A stretch of DNA of 64,000 nt, from NCBI RefSeq assembly GCF_000152985.1, contig NZ_CH672395.1:3941823-4005822 (forward strand), read 5' to 3'. Each line of letters starts with the position of its first letter. Position 1 is the stretch's first letter. The notes below the pieces were generated by a model. That model searched no databases. It was not told the DNA's origin and saw nothing but the letters and a program-made list of their open reading frames with translations. The position numbers and the translations under genes were made by a program. Origin of the DNA: Leeuwenhoekiella blandensis MED217. Lineage in GTDB: Bacteria; Bacteroidota; Bacteroidia; Flavobacteriales; Flavobacteriaceae. Shown here piece after piece: positions 12,052-17,768 of the stretch.

Positions 12052-13089
12052 TTGAATCTTAAAAGCTCCAATACCATTAAACCACCACTTCTTCAATTTA
12101 ACGAAAAGGGCATTTATTGCGCTGCGGCAGATGTGTATCTCGACCCCTGGAAACCGGTCGAAAAAGCCATTATTTCTCACGGCCACGCAGATCACAGCCG
12201 CTGGGGGCACAAAGCATACATCACGCATCACATTAACGTGCCCATTATTAAACACAGGCTGGGCGAAATAAATGTAACCGGTAAGGAATGGGGCGAAACT
12301 TTTAAGATTAAAAATGTAAAATTCAGTTTGCATCCTGCAGGTCATATTATTGGCAGCTCGCAAATTCGCGTAGAACATAAAGGCGAAGTCTGGGTATTTA
12401 CAGGCGATTATAAAACCGAAGATGACGGCATCGCCACTCCGTACGAACCCATCAAATGTCACACGTTTATTACCGAATGTACCTTTGGACTTCCTGCTTT
12501 TAAATGGCGGCCGCAAAGCGAAGTGTTTAATGACATCAACACCTGGTGGTCAGCTAATAAAGCTGAAGGTAAAACCTCGGTGATTTTTGGCTATTCCTTA
12601 GGGAAAGCACAGCGTTTGTTGAGGTATTTAGATACAGATATCGGTAAAATTTATACGCACGGTGCTATTGAAAATATGACGGAAGTAATACGGCCGCTCA
12701 GCCCGATGCCAGAAACCACGCGCGTCACCCGCGAGACCAAAAAAGAAGAACTTCTGGGAAATATTGTGGTCGCTCCTCCCAGCGCACACGGCAGTACATG
12801 GATTCGTAAAATGGTGCCTTATGTTACTGCTTCGGCTAGTGGCTGGATGACCTTTAGAGGAGCCCGAAGACGCCGGGCGATCGATAAAGGTTTTGTCCTG
12901 AGCGATCACTGTGATTGGCAAGGATTATTAGAAAGTATTGAGGCTACTGGTGCCGAAAAGATCATCAGCACGCACGGCTATACCGATATTTTCACTCGGT
13001 ATTTGCTGGAGCAAGGTTATGATGCACGTACCGAAGCGACACAATATGAAGGCGAATTAGGAGAGGAAACTGAAAAAGAACAGGAATGA
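12052..13089 (+). CDS. Ligase-associated MBL-fold DNA exonuclease
   Basis: A 345-residue metallo-beta-lactamase/beta-CASP-type nuclease of the ligase-associated DNA damage response family. The metal motif HGHADH is at residues 43-48; further ligands appear in HPAGHIIGSSQI, FTGDYKTEDDG and LSDHCDWQGL, and the end has ISTHGYTD. The start is a TTG at 12052; no in-frame ATG precedes the conserved GIYCAAADVYLDPWKP region. Its stop overlaps the ligase ATG (ATGA), so the two are translationally coupled. In the Pseudomonas putida homolog cluster this component is called Exo. Confidence 0.9.
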   Translation: MNLKSSNTIKPPLLQFNEKGIYCAAADVYLDPWKPVEKAIISHGHADHSRWGHKAYITHHINVPIIKHRLGEINVTGKEWGETFKIKNVKFSLHPAGHIIGSSQIRVEHKGEVWVFTGDYKTEDDGIATPYEPIKCHTFITECTFGLPAFKWRPQSEVFNDINTWWSANKAEGKTSVIFGYSLGKAQRLLRYLDTDIGKIYTHGAIENMTEVIRPLSPMPETTRVTRETKKEELLGNIVVAPPSAHGSTWIRKMVPYVTASASGWMTFRGARRRRAIDKGFVLSDHCDWQGLLESIEATGAEKIISTHGYTDIFTRYLLEQGYDARTEATQYEGELGEETEKEQE

Positions 13090-14696
13090 GAGCATTTGCC
13101 CAACTTATTAAAAAGATAGACAGCACCAACAAAACCAACATCAAGGTTGATGCCCTCACCGAATATTTTAAAGTGGCTCCGCCGCAAGACAAAGTGTGGA
13201 CGATCGCAATACTTTCACACCGCAGACCTCCCCGACCGGTAAATACAACCTTACTGCGCACTTGGGCTTCGGAGTTGGCAAACATTCCCTTGTGGTTGTT
13301 TGAAGAAAGTTACCACATCGTAGGCGATCTCGCTGAGACGATTGCTTTGGTCATTCCCGCTTCAGAAGAAAGTACCGACAAAAGTCTCACCCAGTTTCTG
13401 GAAGAAATTATCGCACTCAAGAAAAAACCCGAAGAAGAAAAACGAGCTTATCTGCGATCCAACTGGACCGACCTCAACTATTATGAGCGTTTTGTATTTA
13501 GCAAACTCATTACAGGAAGTTTTCGCATTGGCGTGAGCCAGAAATTGATGACGCGTGCGCTCGCAAAGGCTACCGGCATTGACGTTGATATTTTGGCCTA
13601 TAAACTTATGGGGAATTGGGATCCCAAGACCATAAGCTTTCAAGAGCTTATTTTAGAAGAAAACAAAGCAGATTACCTCAGCAAACCGTATCCGTTCTAC
13701 CTCGCTTACGCAATCGAAGATGAGCCCGAAGATTTAGGAGATGTGTCTGAGTGGTTTGCAGAACATAAATGGGACGGCATTCGCTCGCAAGTGATCATTC
13801 GGGATAACGAACTCTTTGTATGGAGTCGCGGTGAAGAATTAGTTACCGATAAATATCCTGAGTTTGAGGCTTTGGTCGAAGCCTTGCCTAACGGAACCGT
13901 TTTGGATGGTGAAATTCTTCCGTTTAAAAATGGGGTGATCGGCACCTTTAATGATTTACAAACGCGTATTGGTCGTAAAAATGTTTCTAAAGCATTGCTC
14001 AAAAAAACGCCGATAATCCTCAAAGCTTATGATATTTTAGAATGGAAAGACAAAGACATTCGCGATCTGGCTTTCGCCGAAAGGCGCAAAATCCTTGAAA
14101 AATTATATAGCGAAGTTAAAACGGAATCGCTGCCGCTGCATCTTTCTGAAACTATGGAATTTGACACCTGGGAAGCTGCGGCTCAAGAACGCGAACGCAG
14201 CCGCGAAGTCATGTCTGAAGGTTTGATGCTGAAGCGAAAAGATTCACCCTACCTAGTAGGACGTAAAAAAGGAGACTGGTGGAAATGGAAGGTAGAACCC
14301 CTTACCATTGACGCTGTACTCACCTATGCGATGCGCGGGCACGGCCGTCGCAGTAATTTATTTACCGACTACACTTTTGGTCTTTGGGACGATAACAAAG
14401 AAGAACTTGTCACTTTTGCCAAAGCGTATTCCGGCCTTACTGATAAGGAGTTTCGCAGTCTCGATGCGTGGATCAAAAAGAACACTTTAGAACGTTTTGG
14501 TCCTGTGCGCAGCGTGACTCCGTATCACGTTTTTGAGATCGCTTTTGAAGGCATCGCCCCTTCCAAACGTCATAAAAGTGGAGTTGCAACCCGTTTCCCA
14601 AGAATGCTGCGCTGGCGGAAAGATAAAAAAATAGAGGATGCCAATACCCTTGAAGATTTAAAACAATTGATCCCAAAGCCTGAGAAATCTAAATAA
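13086..14696 (+). CDS. Ligase-associated ATP-dependent DNA ligase
   Basis: A 536-residue ATP-dependent DNA ligase. The adenylated lysine is K228 in HKWDGIRSQ (KxDG motif I); other nucleotidyltransferase motifs follow (WSRGEE, VLDGEI, SEGLMLKRKDSPY, and WWKWKVEP as motif V). An N-terminal helical DNA-binding domain (~1-190) and C-terminal OB fold flank the core. It seals nicks in duplex DNA. It overlaps the exonuclease gene by 4 bp and belongs to the Exo-Lig-Lhr-MPE repair cluster; the usual adjacency with the helicase is broken by the DUF559 module. Confidence 0.94.
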   Translation: MRAFAQLIKKIDSTNKTNIKVDALTEYFKVAPPQDKVWTIAILSHRRPPRPVNTTLLRTWASELANIPLWLFEESYHIVGDLAETIALVIPASEESTDKSLTQFLEEIIALKKKPEEEKRAYLRSNWTDLNYYERFVFSKLITGSFRIGVSQKLMTRALAKATGIDVDILAYKLMGNWDPKTISFQELILEENKADYLSKPYPFYLAYAIEDEPEDLGDVSEWFAEHKWDGIRSQVIIRDNELFVWSRGEELVTDKYPEFEALVEALPNGTVLDGEILPFKNGVIGTFNDLQTRIGRKNVSKALLKKTPIILKAYDILEWKDKDIRDLAFAERRKILEKLYSEVKTESLPLHLSETMEFDTWEAAAQERERSREVMSEGLMLKRKDSPYLVGRKKGDWWKWKVEPLTIDAVLTYAMRGHGRRSNLFTDYTFGLWDDNKEELVTFAKAYSGLTDKEFRSLDAWIKKNTLERFGPVRSVTPYHVFEIAFEGIAPSKRHKSGVATRFPRMLRWRKDKKIEDANTLEDLKQLIPKPEKSK

Positions 14697-14735
14697 GGAA
14701 ACATTTGAAATTTTAACTTTAAAAGGATTAAACGC

Positions 14736-14790
14736 TCTCCTCCTTTTCAAGGAGGAGAATGAATTTGCCAAAGGCAAAGAAAGAGGTGGT
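14736..14790 (+). repeat. Left double-hairpin repeat of the DUF559 module
   Basis: Two hairpins in tandem. The first pairs TCTCCTCCTT (14736-14745) with AAGGAGGAGA (14749-14758) around a 3-nt loop. The second pairs TTTGCC (14764-14769) with GGCAAA (14773-14778). AGAGGTGGT follows at 14782-14790. An inverted counterpart of the same plan lies downstream of the DUF559 gene at 15201-15250. Confidence 0.8.
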
Positions 14791-14805
14791 AACAGGTTGT
14801 TTAAA

Positions 14806-15168
14806 ATGAAAAAACAAGTACATAATTTAAAGGAACTCGAATCTCAACGAAAGTATCTAAGGTCTAATTTAACAGCGGCTGAAGCTTATTTATGGAACTA
14901 TTTAAAAAAATCTCAACTTAATGGAAGAAAATTTAGAAGACAACACAGTATATCACATTTTATCGTTGATTTTTATTGCCCGAAAGAAAAATTGATCATA
15001 GAACTTGACGGACAACATCATTTAAGCTCTACCGCCATGGAGTACGATGAATTCCGCACAAAGAAGTTGAATGATTTAGGTTATACTATAATTCGCTTTG
15101 AGAATAAAATGGTGTTTGACCTTTTACCAAGTGTTTTGAAAGAAATCGAGGATAATTTTAAATGCTAA
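14806..15168 (+). CDS. DUF559 / Vsr-like endonuclease-fold protein
   Basis: A 120-residue protein of the DUF559 family (very-short-patch-repair/PD-(D/E)XK fold). The core is AEAYLWNYLK (~25), then FRRQHSISHFIVDFYCP and KLIIELDGQHH, giving the D-x(n)-E-x-D arrangement of the nuclease family, and ends with GYTIIRFEN. The ATG at 14806 is preferred to a TTG three codons earlier. It sits inside the repair operon between ligase and helicase, enclosed by inverted double hairpins, which suggests insertion as a unit. Nuclease activity is inferred from the family and not demonstrated. Confidence 0.85.
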   Translation: MKKQVHNLKELESQRKYLRSNLTAAEAYLWNYLKKSQLNGRKFRRQHSISHFIVDFYCPKEKLIIELDGQHHLSSTAMEYDEFRTKKLNDLGYTIIRFENKMVFDLLPSVLKEIEDNFKC

Positions 15169-15200
15169 ATTAAATCAATGTTATTGGCGGTAATGAAACC

Positions 15201-15250
15201 ACCCCGTCGCGATTTAGATCGCGACACCCCTCCTAAATTTAGGAGGGGAG
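15201..15250 (-). repeat. Right double-hairpin repeat of the DUF559 module (inverted)
   Basis: Read on the minus strand: the 22-bp perfect palindrome at 15227-15248 (arm CCCCTCCTAAA), then a hairpin GTCGCGAT/ATCGCGAC (15206-15213 and 15218-15225), then GGGGTGGTTT. This repeats the order of the left element (CTCC-rich palindrome, second hairpin, GGTGGT), in inverted orientation. Confidence 0.8.
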
Positions 15251-15299
15251 CCATAACAATCTGAGTCCAGTTCAAAACCCATCTGCTATTCATAACGAA

Positions 15300-17768
15300 A
15301 TGACCCACAAACAACTTCATAAACTTGCCACTAATTGGTTTAAGGATCAAGGGTGGAAACCTTTTGCCTTTCAGGAAGAAACTTGGAATGCATTTTTAGA
15401 AGGTAAAAATGGATTGCTGAATGCACCCACAGGTAGCGGAAAAACATACGCCTTATGGGTAGCCTTCGTATTGGATTATATCAAAAACAATCCCGATTAT
15501 AAAACCAAACACAAGCCCGGTCTTAAAGCGATTTGGATCACACCTCTTCGCGCGCTTTCTGTTGAAATTGCACAGGCAGCCCAACGTTTTGCTGATGGTT
15601 TGGATACCCAACTAACAGTTGGGATTCGCACCGGTGACACGCCTCAAGCCGAACGGGCGAAGCAAAAAAAGAAAATGCCCGATTTGCTGGTCACCACTCC
15701 AGAAAGTCTTCAGTTATTGCTGACTTCAAAAGGATATGACAAGGTTTTTAAAAACACTACTGCTATCGTTATTGATGAGTGGCACGAACTTTTAGGAAGC
15801 AAACGCGGTGTGCAAGTAGAGCTCGGTTTGTCTCGCCTCAAAACGATCGCGCCGCAGTTGCGCATTTGGGGTGTTTCGGCAACTATAGGGAATCTAAATC
15901 AGGCACGCGAGGTGCTTCTGGGACCCGAATCTCAAGCATTTAAAAATTCTGCATTAATCAAAGCCAATCTTGGAAAAACCTACAAAGTAGAAAGCATCAT
16001 CCCGGAGACTATGGAAAAATTTCCGTGGCGTGGGCATATGGGTTTGCATTTGCTTGAAGAGGTGGTTCCCATCATCAATAATAGTAAAACCACTTTGCTT
16101 TTTACCAATACCCGGGCGCAATGTGAGTTGTGGTTTCAAAAACTGATGCATAAACATCCCGAATTTGCCGGCGAGATGGCGATGCATCACGGCAGCATCA
16201 ATAAAGAAACGCGATTGTGGGTTGAAGAAGCCATTCGCAACGAAAGCCTTAAAGCCGTGATTTGTACCTCGAGTCTAGATCTGGGCGTTGATTTTGCGCC
16301 GGTAGAAAGTATCATTCAAATTGGTGGTCCAAAAGGGGTTGCGCGCTTTCTACAACGTGCAGGACGCAGCGGTCACCAGCCCGGTAAAGAAAGTGTGATC
16401 TACTTTTTACCTACGCACGCCATCGAGTTGATCGAAGCTTCAGCACTGGGAAAAGCGGCGATCAATCAGGTCGTTGAAGATCGTATTCCGTATTTGTTGA
16501 GCTTTGATGTATTGATTCAGTATTTGACGACTTTAGCAGTTTCAGACGGTTTTTATCCTGCGGAAATTTATCAGGAAGTCAAGCAAACCTTCTGCTTTCA
16601 GGCAATGTCAGACGAGCAATGGCGATGGATCTTAAATTTCATCACAAAAGGCAGTCAGTCGTTGCAAGCCTATGATGAGTATAAGAAAATTGAGATCGAA
16701 GAAGACGGAAAATTCAAAGTAAACAGCAGATCGGTAGCGATGCGCCACCGGCTACAAATTGGTACCATTGTTGGCGATGCGGCGCTTCAGGTAAAATATT
16801 TAAAAGGTGGCTACATCGGTACAGTCGAAGAATGGTTTATCTCTAAACTAAAGCCCGGCGATGTCTTTACTTTTGCAGGAAGAAATCTCGAACTCTACCG
16901 CATTAAAGGAATGCAGGTTTTGGTCAAAAAAGCCAAAACCAAAAAACAAGCGCGCGTGGTAAGTTGGATGGGTGGCCGACTCACATTATCTGCGCAAATG
17001 AGCGAATTGCTGCGCGAAGAGTTGTACTCGGCAAATCTTCCTTTGGAAGAACAAACGCGCGAACTGCAAGCCCTCAAAGATATTTTTGAGCGGCAACGCG
17101 TAGAATCTATCGTACCGACTGATGATCAATTTTTGATCGAAACCTTTAAAAGTCGGGAAGGTTATCACCATATTTTTTATCCGTTTGAAGGGCGTTTTGT
17201 ACACGAAGCTTTGGGCAGTTTGCTCGCCTATCGCATCAGTTTGCTGTCGCCCATTACCTTCAGCATCGCTTTTAACGATTATGGTTTTGAAATTCTTTCT
17301 GATCAACAAATAGATATGCAGCAAGTGCTCGACAACGACTTGTTTACTTCGGCTTATTTATTTGAAGACTTGCAGAAAAGCTTAAACAGCACAGAAATGG
17401 CCCGCAGAAAATTCAGAGATATTGCGGTGATCAGCGGTATGGTTTTTACAGGATTTCCCGGGAAAATCATCAAAAACAAACATTTGCAAAGCAACAGTCA
17501 GTTGTTGTTTGAAGTATTCAGAGATTATGAACCGGAGAATCTTTTGTTTCAGCAAGCCTATCGCGAGACTTTTGAACATCAATTGGAAGAAGGCCGTTTG
17601 CGCATTGCTCTTGAGCGAATAGAACAACAAGAGATCGTAGTTAAAAACTGTAAAAAAGCGACCCCATTTTCCTTCCCAATCATCACCGATCGCCTTCGTG
17701 AAAAACTAAGCAGCGAGAAGCTTGAAGATCGCATTAAAAATATGCTGAAGTATCTCGATAAATACTAG
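15300..17768 (+). CDS. Ligase-associated DEXH-box helicase (Lhr-core type)
   Basis: An 822-residue superfamily-2 helicase. Walker A is APTGSGKTYALW near residue 43 and the DEXH box is IDEWHELLGSKRG near 159; motif III is WGVSATIG and motif VI QRAGRSGHQPG near 355. A winged-helix and Lhr-type C-terminal domain follow, with RGRxVxHE-like EGRFVHEALGSLLAYR near 640. Lhr-core enzymes translocate 3'-5' on single-stranded DNA and unwind hybrids. This is the helicase of the ligase-associated DNA repair cluster. Start ATG at 15300, 50 bp after the DUF559 right repeat. Confidence 0.93.
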   Translation: MTHKQLHKLATNWFKDQGWKPFAFQEETWNAFLEGKNGLLNAPTGSGKTYALWVAFVLDYIKNNPDYKTKHKPGLKAIWITPLRALSVEIAQAAQRFADGLDTQLTVGIRTGDTPQAERAKQKKKMPDLLVTTPESLQLLLTSKGYDKVFKNTTAIVIDEWHELLGSKRGVQVELGLSRLKTIAPQLRIWGVSATIGNLNQAREVLLGPESQAFKNSALIKANLGKTYKVESIIPETMEKFPWRGHMGLHLLEEVVPIINNSKTTLLFTNTRAQCELWFQKLMHKHPEFAGEMAMHHGSINKETRLWVEEAIRNESLKAVICTSSLDLGVDFAPVESIIQIGGPKGVARFLQRAGRSGHQPGKESVIYFLPTHAIELIEASALGKAAINQVVEDRIPYLLSFDVLIQYLTTLAVSDGFYPAEIYQEVKQTFCFQAMSDEQWRWILNFITKGSQSLQAYDEYKKIEIEEDGKFKVNSRSVAMRHRLQIGTIVGDAALQVKYLKGGYIGTVEEWFISKLKPGDVFTFAGRNLELYRIKGMQVLVKKAKTKKQARVVSWMGGRLTLSAQMSELLREELYSANLPLEEQTRELQALKDIFERQRVESIVPTDDQFLIETFKSREGYHHIFYPFEGRFVHEALGSLLAYRISLLSPITFSIAFNDYGFEILSDQQIDMQQVLDNDLFTSAYLFEDLQKSLNSTEMARRKFRDIAVISGMVFTGFPGKIIKNKHLQSNSQLLFEVFRDYEPENLLFQQAYRETFEHQLEEGRLRIALERIEQQEIVVKNCKKATPFSFPIITDRLREKLSSEKLEDRIKNMLKYLDKY

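Follow-up and report, generated by a model that had tools for sequence, protein, structure and literature searches.

The window, which is the whole stretch of 64,000 nucleotides that was analysed, contains a small nuclease gene bracketed by two palindromic DNA elements. The upstream neighbour is an ATP-dependent DNA ligase gene (13086-14696, plus strand), and the downstream neighbour is an Lhr-type DEAD helicase gene (15300-17768, plus strand). The gene between them (14806-15168, plus strand) encodes a DUF559 nuclease of 120 amino acids (Pfam PF04480, E 3e-32) with an EDxHD kind of fold that may also be Vsr-like. Several computations took this gene as 14803-15165, one codon further upstream.

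The left end is on the plus strand and begins with a pyrimidine/purine palindrome, TCTCCTCCTT-TTC-AAGGAGGAGA (14736-14758), in which a pyrimidine (Y) arm and a purine (R) arm of 10 bp flank a 3-nt loop. The palindrome is followed by a turn (14759-14782) holding the hairpin TTTGCC-AAA-GGCAAA (14764-14778), and then by a mirror tail, GAGGTGGTA (14783-14791; GAGGTGGT at 14783-14790), which matches the purine arm under the triplex code described below. The right end, on the minus strand, is inverted relative to the left. Its palindrome CCCCTCCTAAATTTAGGAGGGG (15227-15248) is succeeded by a turn (15206-15226) with the hairpin GTCGCGAT-TTAG-ATCGCGAC (15206-15225) and by a mirror tail (15198-15205) that reads GGGGTGGT on the minus strand and ACCACCCC at those coordinates. 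A detector for a palindrome combined with a mirror tail finds two triplex ends in the 64-kb window, precisely this pair, and no palindromes were found in 3000 shuffled flanks of other DUF559 loci. The initial annotation had positioned both ends correctly and had described them as elements of one plan lying in inverted orientation around the DUF559 gene, and this description stands. It also called them double hairpins. The second hairpin is indeed present, but an intrastrand triplex is the better description. Likewise, the GGTGGT noted as a tail exists, but it is really the mirror image of the purine arm of the palindrome, a relationship that had been overlooked.

Among the palindromes near DUF559 genes (best 80 of 554 loci), the tail is the purine arm in mirror order, with G placed on G and either A or T placed on A. 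The arm CCCCTCC is accompanied by the tail GGGGTGG, CCTTCCC by GGAAGGG, CTCCTCC by GAGGTGG, CCTTTCC by GGAAAGG and CCTCCCT by GGAGGGT. Judged from the sequences, this rule is the code of a purine-motif (reverse-Hoogsteen) triplex. The code is followed by an end's own tail over at least 7 nt in 145 of 165 distinct ends, compared to a mean of 30.6 for permuted tails. Other tail-arm relations, namely a direct repeat (43/165 versus 22.5 permuted), Watson-Crick pairing (11/165 versus 9.5) and a nonsense code (4/165 versus 7.6), were rejected, as all of them score below the triplex code. In the matched runs, where the code was imposed during counting, a C in the pyrimidine arm faces G in 793 cases, and a T faces T in 287 and A in 191. 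The detector thresholds were chosen after the ends had been inspected, and identical thresholds were used for the permuted and control sets.

The commonest length of the turn between arm and tail is 3 nt (30 of 147 ends), and most of the other turns are 10-45 nt long. Both ends in the window are of the long-turn kind, and second loops TTA and CCG occur among DUF559 ends. A stem of at least 5 bp is found inside 78 of the 108 turns that are 10 nt or longer, compared to 14.6 after shuffling, despite the presence of 96 different sequences among these turns. The earlier remark that the second hairpin changes in sequence while its stem is kept is therefore correct, and it is a general rule. Among 172 palindromes, the tail points inward in 62 and outward in 47, with 63 undecided.

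A profile search with the window protein retrieved PDB entries 3hrl (E 4e-33) and 3r3p (E 5e-5), the latter being the homing endonuclease I-Bth0305I, described in the PDB as a mobile intron protein. The AlphaFold2 model of the window protein has a pLDDT of 90.9, and its top Foldseek matches are again 3hrl and 3r3p (E 2e-4 for 3r3p). PvuRts1I, AbaSI and Vsr are weaker matches, with 1vsr being a distant one (E 0.024, probability 0.99, TM 0.53). Thirteen positions, including D56, E67, H73 and D82, are invariant in 43 DUF559 sequences. By profile and predicted fold, the window nuclease is related to I-Bth0305I, and one report assigns a DUF559 gene to the EDxHD homing family (PMC9403480).

The association of DUF559 genes with triplex ends was examined at the 80 best of 554 confirmed loci, which had been picked by protein similarity and regardless of what flanks the gene. 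Five loci with a flank shorter than 160 bp were dropped. A triplex end lies within 300 bp of 66 of the remaining 75 genes, and on both sides of 33, so that the initial annotation's concern that no other DUF559 gene might carry similar flanks can be set aside. Ends were not detected at the other nine. They were found at 2 of 64 control ORFs of the same loci (Fisher p 6e-27) and at none of 40 Y1_Tnp genes from the bacterial family to which the window belongs (p 1e-22), the search distance being wider for the Y1_Tnp genes (450 bp). Palindromes number 6.0 per kb in the nearest 100 bp around DUF559, compared to 0.03-0.09 per kb at distances above 1 kb. In a separate set of loci, 31 of 42 solo DUF559 genes have triplex ends. 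Nine of the best 80 loci fall outside Bacteroidota by their record titles, and eight of these have ends; they include a Methanophagales archaeon, Patescibacteria-type, Desulfobacterales and Anaerolineae records, and because many of the assemblies are MAGs, any single taxonomic assignment may be wrong.

In a plasmid collection, 18 regions out of 38 DUF559 records were examined (Cyanobacteriota, Pseudomonadota, Deinococcota). Ends are present at 11 of them, and the strict detector found none at the other seven, which are two from E. coli (ycjD), four cyanobacterial and one from Azospirillum. The DUF559 gene of S. meliloti pSymB has two triplex motifs upstream and one downstream, that of a Sphingomonas plasmid sits between sufB and sufC, and three Deinococcus plasmids carry the gene at three different positions inside one hpa gene cluster. 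The inverted repeats of the Deinococcus units (L364:1395-1867 and, by eye, L366) extend about 15-25 bp past the triplex tail, and this outer part is matched within a unit and different between units (L366 by eye). On a Photobacterium plasmid (L313:2400-3975), 14 detected triplex motifs are arrayed after the DUF559 gene. From viral contigs, 71 relatives were retrieved.

A family search over whole genomes missed its E. coli control, whose strain is unstated, yet a K-12 derivative carries ycjD, and the DUF559 counts per genome are therefore lower bounds. Across 199 genomes, a relation of repeat counts to DUF559 was tried and discarded, the pattern being mostly chance and too noisy. Repeat counts are at least 8 above control in five genomes (G000, G013, G077, G094 and G096), all of which have DUF559 matches, the one in G013 being only in two pieces. 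This excess is not used as evidence because the repeat-count pattern was derived from DUF559 ends.

DUF559 also occurs inside or fused to host proteins. These are LeuRS (in the editing domain), RecG (between the helicase domains), MetH, HisD, HemD, a SpoU-type methylase, a PurL-type GATase_5 protein, a type ISP restriction enzyme and HsdR proteins; the hosts of ten fusions were named by Pfam. A triplex end is located within 150 bp of 41 of the 51 inserts and fusions, on both sides in 23, compared to 1 of 204 control points. No end was detected at the other 10, and metH lacks one in three of four cases. Ends that are in frame often translate to Pro/Gly/Ser-rich stretches, as seen by eye. Intein models are absent from the Pfam matches of the ten fusions at E 1e-6, and positions 14600-15400 of the window gave no Rfam match to a group I intron at E 1. 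One HsdR-like protein (L126:181-3315) has GIY-YIG and DUF559 domains between its N-terminal and ATPase domains, so that a single host protein carries a pair of nuclease domains of the homing type.

The genus was sampled with 13 genomes, including the window's own, of which 12 have a readable junction between ligase and helicase. The junction holds DUF559 with ends in seven genomes, neither in four, and a gene-free pair of ends in one, the ends being assigned by eye. In the last of these, G205, the repeat pair is the sole content of the junction. The four genomes in which ligase and helicase have neither DUF559 nor ends between them (by eye) bear out the initial annotation's view that the helicase is the normal neighbour of the ligase, and they provide the empty sites that it suggested seeking among relatives. 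Its other concern, that the same DUF559 might sit here in all relatives without hairpins, does not apply either, as seven of the 12 junctions carry both gene and ends. In one genome with an empty junction, the ligase is 98% identical. Compared to the empty G208 site, the window junction has 39 and 51 additional bases beyond its two ends, and neither clean insertion borders nor target duplications were found.

The LeuRS site is filled in eight of the 13 genomes and empty in five, the own genome counted. At least one end was detected at six of the eight filled sites, and the remaining two have shorter arms. The five empty alleles contain no repeat pair, as judged by eye. At the insertion loop of three congeners with an empty LeuRS gene (L374, L376 and L378), ATTCAGAATTC-like tandem copies are present. 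The filled genes form 28 pairs, and in 21 of these the insert is at least 9 points less alike than the host. In four pairs, the insert exceeds the N part of the host by more than 2 points: G199-G207 (98.7 versus 90.7), G207-G203 (90.4 versus 83.4), G199-G203 (90.2% versus 82.1%, with 84.7% for the C part of the host) and G200-G144 (95.0 versus 92.6). Because the inserts of the 21 pairs have diverged beyond their hosts, the similarity in these four is not due to a slowly evolving insert. The LeuRS hosts of G202 (empty) and G203 (filled) are 94.8% alike and are sisters in the host tree. As far as sequence identities can tell, the contrasts between insert and host may be signs of lateral movement.

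A single origin of the LeuRS inserts of the genus was not rejected by the AU test (p 0.39). A tree of DUF559 domains, from which 9 of 186 domains shorter than 90 residues were left out, has 177 rows and many unresolved forks. In this tree, the inserts in hemD (10) and metH (4) each constitute one group, leuS requires two changes, and the ligase-helicase copies are placed among solo genes. The AU result and the single hemD and metH groups suggest that the distribution may in part reflect old vertical inheritance.

Two-ended copies without a DUF559 gene occur in the window's own genome. Copies of the ends free of the gene had been proposed as something to search for, and they were found as inverted pairs with the same plan, with tails pointing inward and about 20 nt apart. 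Several DUF559 loci have additional repeats around the gene. On G000:C1, gene-free inverted pairs are located at about 290-309 kb, 2.96-3.00 Mb, 3.15-3.18 Mb and 3.85 Mb (L024-L029). These regions also match many other repeats of about 100-200 bp that are common to congeners, and they look like repeat-rich variable clusters. The dispersed pairs were rejected as proof of transposition: their surroundings are repeat-rich and some flanks are shared beyond the pair, so that larger pieces may have been duplicated. The own genome has a fourth, partial DUF559 match (L004), which lies within a longer reading frame that is apparently cut by an insertion-sequence-like gene (by eye).

The DUF559 gene of E. 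coli is ycjD, which is flanked by sapF and fabI. Of 5426 genomes of this species, 3365 carry it, with a median of one place per carrying genome. A sequence resembling TM-ECO, the published triplex motif discussed below, lies about 165 bp downstream of ycjD (the fit to the published pattern is by eye). Degenerate relatives are located nearer to the gene, also by eye, and the strict detector scores none of these. A clean empty ycjD site was not obtained in E. coli, as two strains that lack the gene have other genes beside fabI.

Taken together, the unit is probably (with a probability of roughly 0.6) a small homing-like mobile cassette, consisting of a DUF559 nuclease gene with two inverted intrastrand-triplex ends. 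The module proposed by the initial annotation is thus real, recurrent and variable within the genus (66/75 genes, 7/12 junctions, 8/13 LeuRS sites), with its double-hairpin form superseded. Computation established the ends and their code, their co-occurrence with DUF559 in several phyla, the inserts and fusions in frame with host genes and the variable presence within the genus. Mobility of the unit has good support but falls short of proof, and the module might move itself or spread the repeats. We infer that the ends, or empty alleles, would be substrates of the nuclease. It may break the empty allele, or an end folded as a single strand during replication, and repair of the break would copy the cassette in, as happens with homing endonuclease genes. 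The triplex ends would serve as recognised or protected termini of the cassette, and the gene-free two-ended copies would be non-autonomous derivatives, similar to MITEs or REPINs. Readthrough of the ends as Pro/Gly/Ser-rich sequence may make an unspliced insert tolerable for the host protein.

The main rival of the homing-like cassette reverses the roles of gene and repeats. The paired triplex repeats would be the target, and DUF559 genes would home into pre-existing REPIN-like pairs, between the two halves. Gene-free pairs of the same plan, with inward tails and a short spacing, favour this reading; the G205 junction holds one alone, and the extra repeats around the gene at several loci also fit. 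However, the LeuRS inserts have ends, whereas none of the genus's five empty LeuRS genes contains a repeat pair (by eye), and the tails point outward at many loci. We regard the landing-site reading as unlikely and prefer the homing-like cassette.

It is more doubtful still that some other enzyme moves the triplex repeats, with DUF559 as a frequent passenger. The existence of gene-free pairs agrees with such hitchhiking, as does the contrast between the 23 motifs that a 2015 survey gives for E. coli K-12 (PMC4666352) and the median of one place for ycjD. Nevertheless, ends accompany 66 of 75 DUF559 genes in several phyla (best 80 of 554 loci), compared to none of 40 Y1_Tnp genes.

GC-rich hairpins are common near gene ends, and DUF559 might be a Vsr-like host nuclease for repair or defence, whose hairpins are terminators or insulators that lower expression. 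A host role is favoured by the DUF559 protein VsrA: a Caulobacter mutant in a methyltransferase requires it for the SOS response and DNA-damage signalling, and a function in mismatch repair has been proposed for it (PMC12907096). Yet the ends are read through in frame within host proteins, a terminator has no need of a mirror tail, and the presence of the unit differs between close relatives; this explanation is very improbable. The possibility that a Y1 tyrosine transposase (RAYT) mobilises the repeats in a REPtron-like manner can be all but dismissed despite the REPIN-like architecture and the atypical flanking structures that PMC6006769 ascribes to Bacteroidetes RAYT subclass 2.6, because the genome has no PF01797 match and none of the 40 Y1_Tnp genes of the family has triplex ends.

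The homing-like cassette may, more tentatively and at somewhat less than even odds, represent a new class of mobile element. Its members would combine a homing-type nuclease with DNA-triplex termini, occur in several bacterial phyla and in a Methanophagales assembly, and insert between essential genes or in frame within them without splicing. They would also be the source of the PIT/TM repeats, TM-ECO included, with YcjD as the E. coli enzyme. If this is true, three-stranded folded DNA marks the termini of a mobile unit, and the occurrence of the same in-frame nuclease domain in LeuRS, RecG, MetH, HisD, HemD, PurL-type and restriction proteins is explained. The distribution of ycjD in E. coli makes the origin of the triplex motifs testable in a laboratory strain. 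A literature search, which left many subscription journals and bioRxiv uncovered, found no work that links DUF559 or ycjD to triplex or REP repeats.

Several known systems share features with the DUF559 units. Rickettsia palindromic elements are likewise palindromic DNA in frame in protein genes, but they consist of different repeats and have no nuclease gene inside, unlike the units described here. I-Bth0305I is encoded in a group I intron of a phage. It resembles the window nuclease in profile and fold and in being encoded by a small gene within conserved host genes. The DUF559 protein, however, is the catalytic core alone, whereas I-Bth0305I has additional DNA-binding regions (PMC3943268), and the DUF559 unit has triplex ends and no splicing element. 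In REPtrons, too, a gene sits amid palindromic repeats in inverted orientation, and doublets that lack the gene occur at other places in the genome. Their repeats are GTAG-tagged hairpins, whereas the repeats here follow the triplex code, and the nuclease here differs in fold from the REPtron enzyme; the absence of a Y1_Tnp match from the genome and of ends from the 40 Y1_Tnp genes agrees with the initial annotation, which had considered the two enzymes unrelated. CGTC is another class of orphan repeats (PMC3733652).

The closest resemblance is to intrastrand triplex motifs, formerly called PIT (Hoyne and Maher), to which TM-ECO of Holder et al. 2015 belongs. In the latter report (PMC4666352), the TM motif is given as CCCTCNCCC, a loop, GGGNGAGGG, a 3-nt loop and GGGNGAGGG, and is described from 262 proteobacterial genomes. 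TM-ECO occurs in inverted pairs of TTA-loop and CCG-loop types and forms a triplex in vitro, as observed by CD and NMR; the same report states that a stable triplex was not found in vivo and that activities providing mobility were never found near the E. coli motifs (PMC4666352). The DUF559 ends share the Y arm, loop, R arm, second loop and purine third strand with these motifs, obey the same code (G.GC, A.AT, T.AT) and also form inverted pairs. The ends in the window thus match PIT/TM elements, as far as the sequence code reveals. The arms of DUF559 ends vary widely, however, and a turn of 10-45 nt that holds a hairpin often takes the place of the short second loop. Furthermore, PIT/TM elements have been described as repeats without a mobility function, whereas the DUF559 ends bracket a nuclease gene. 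The new element here is that a nuclease family is tied to triplex repeats, which provides a possible partner enzyme for repeats of unknown origin.
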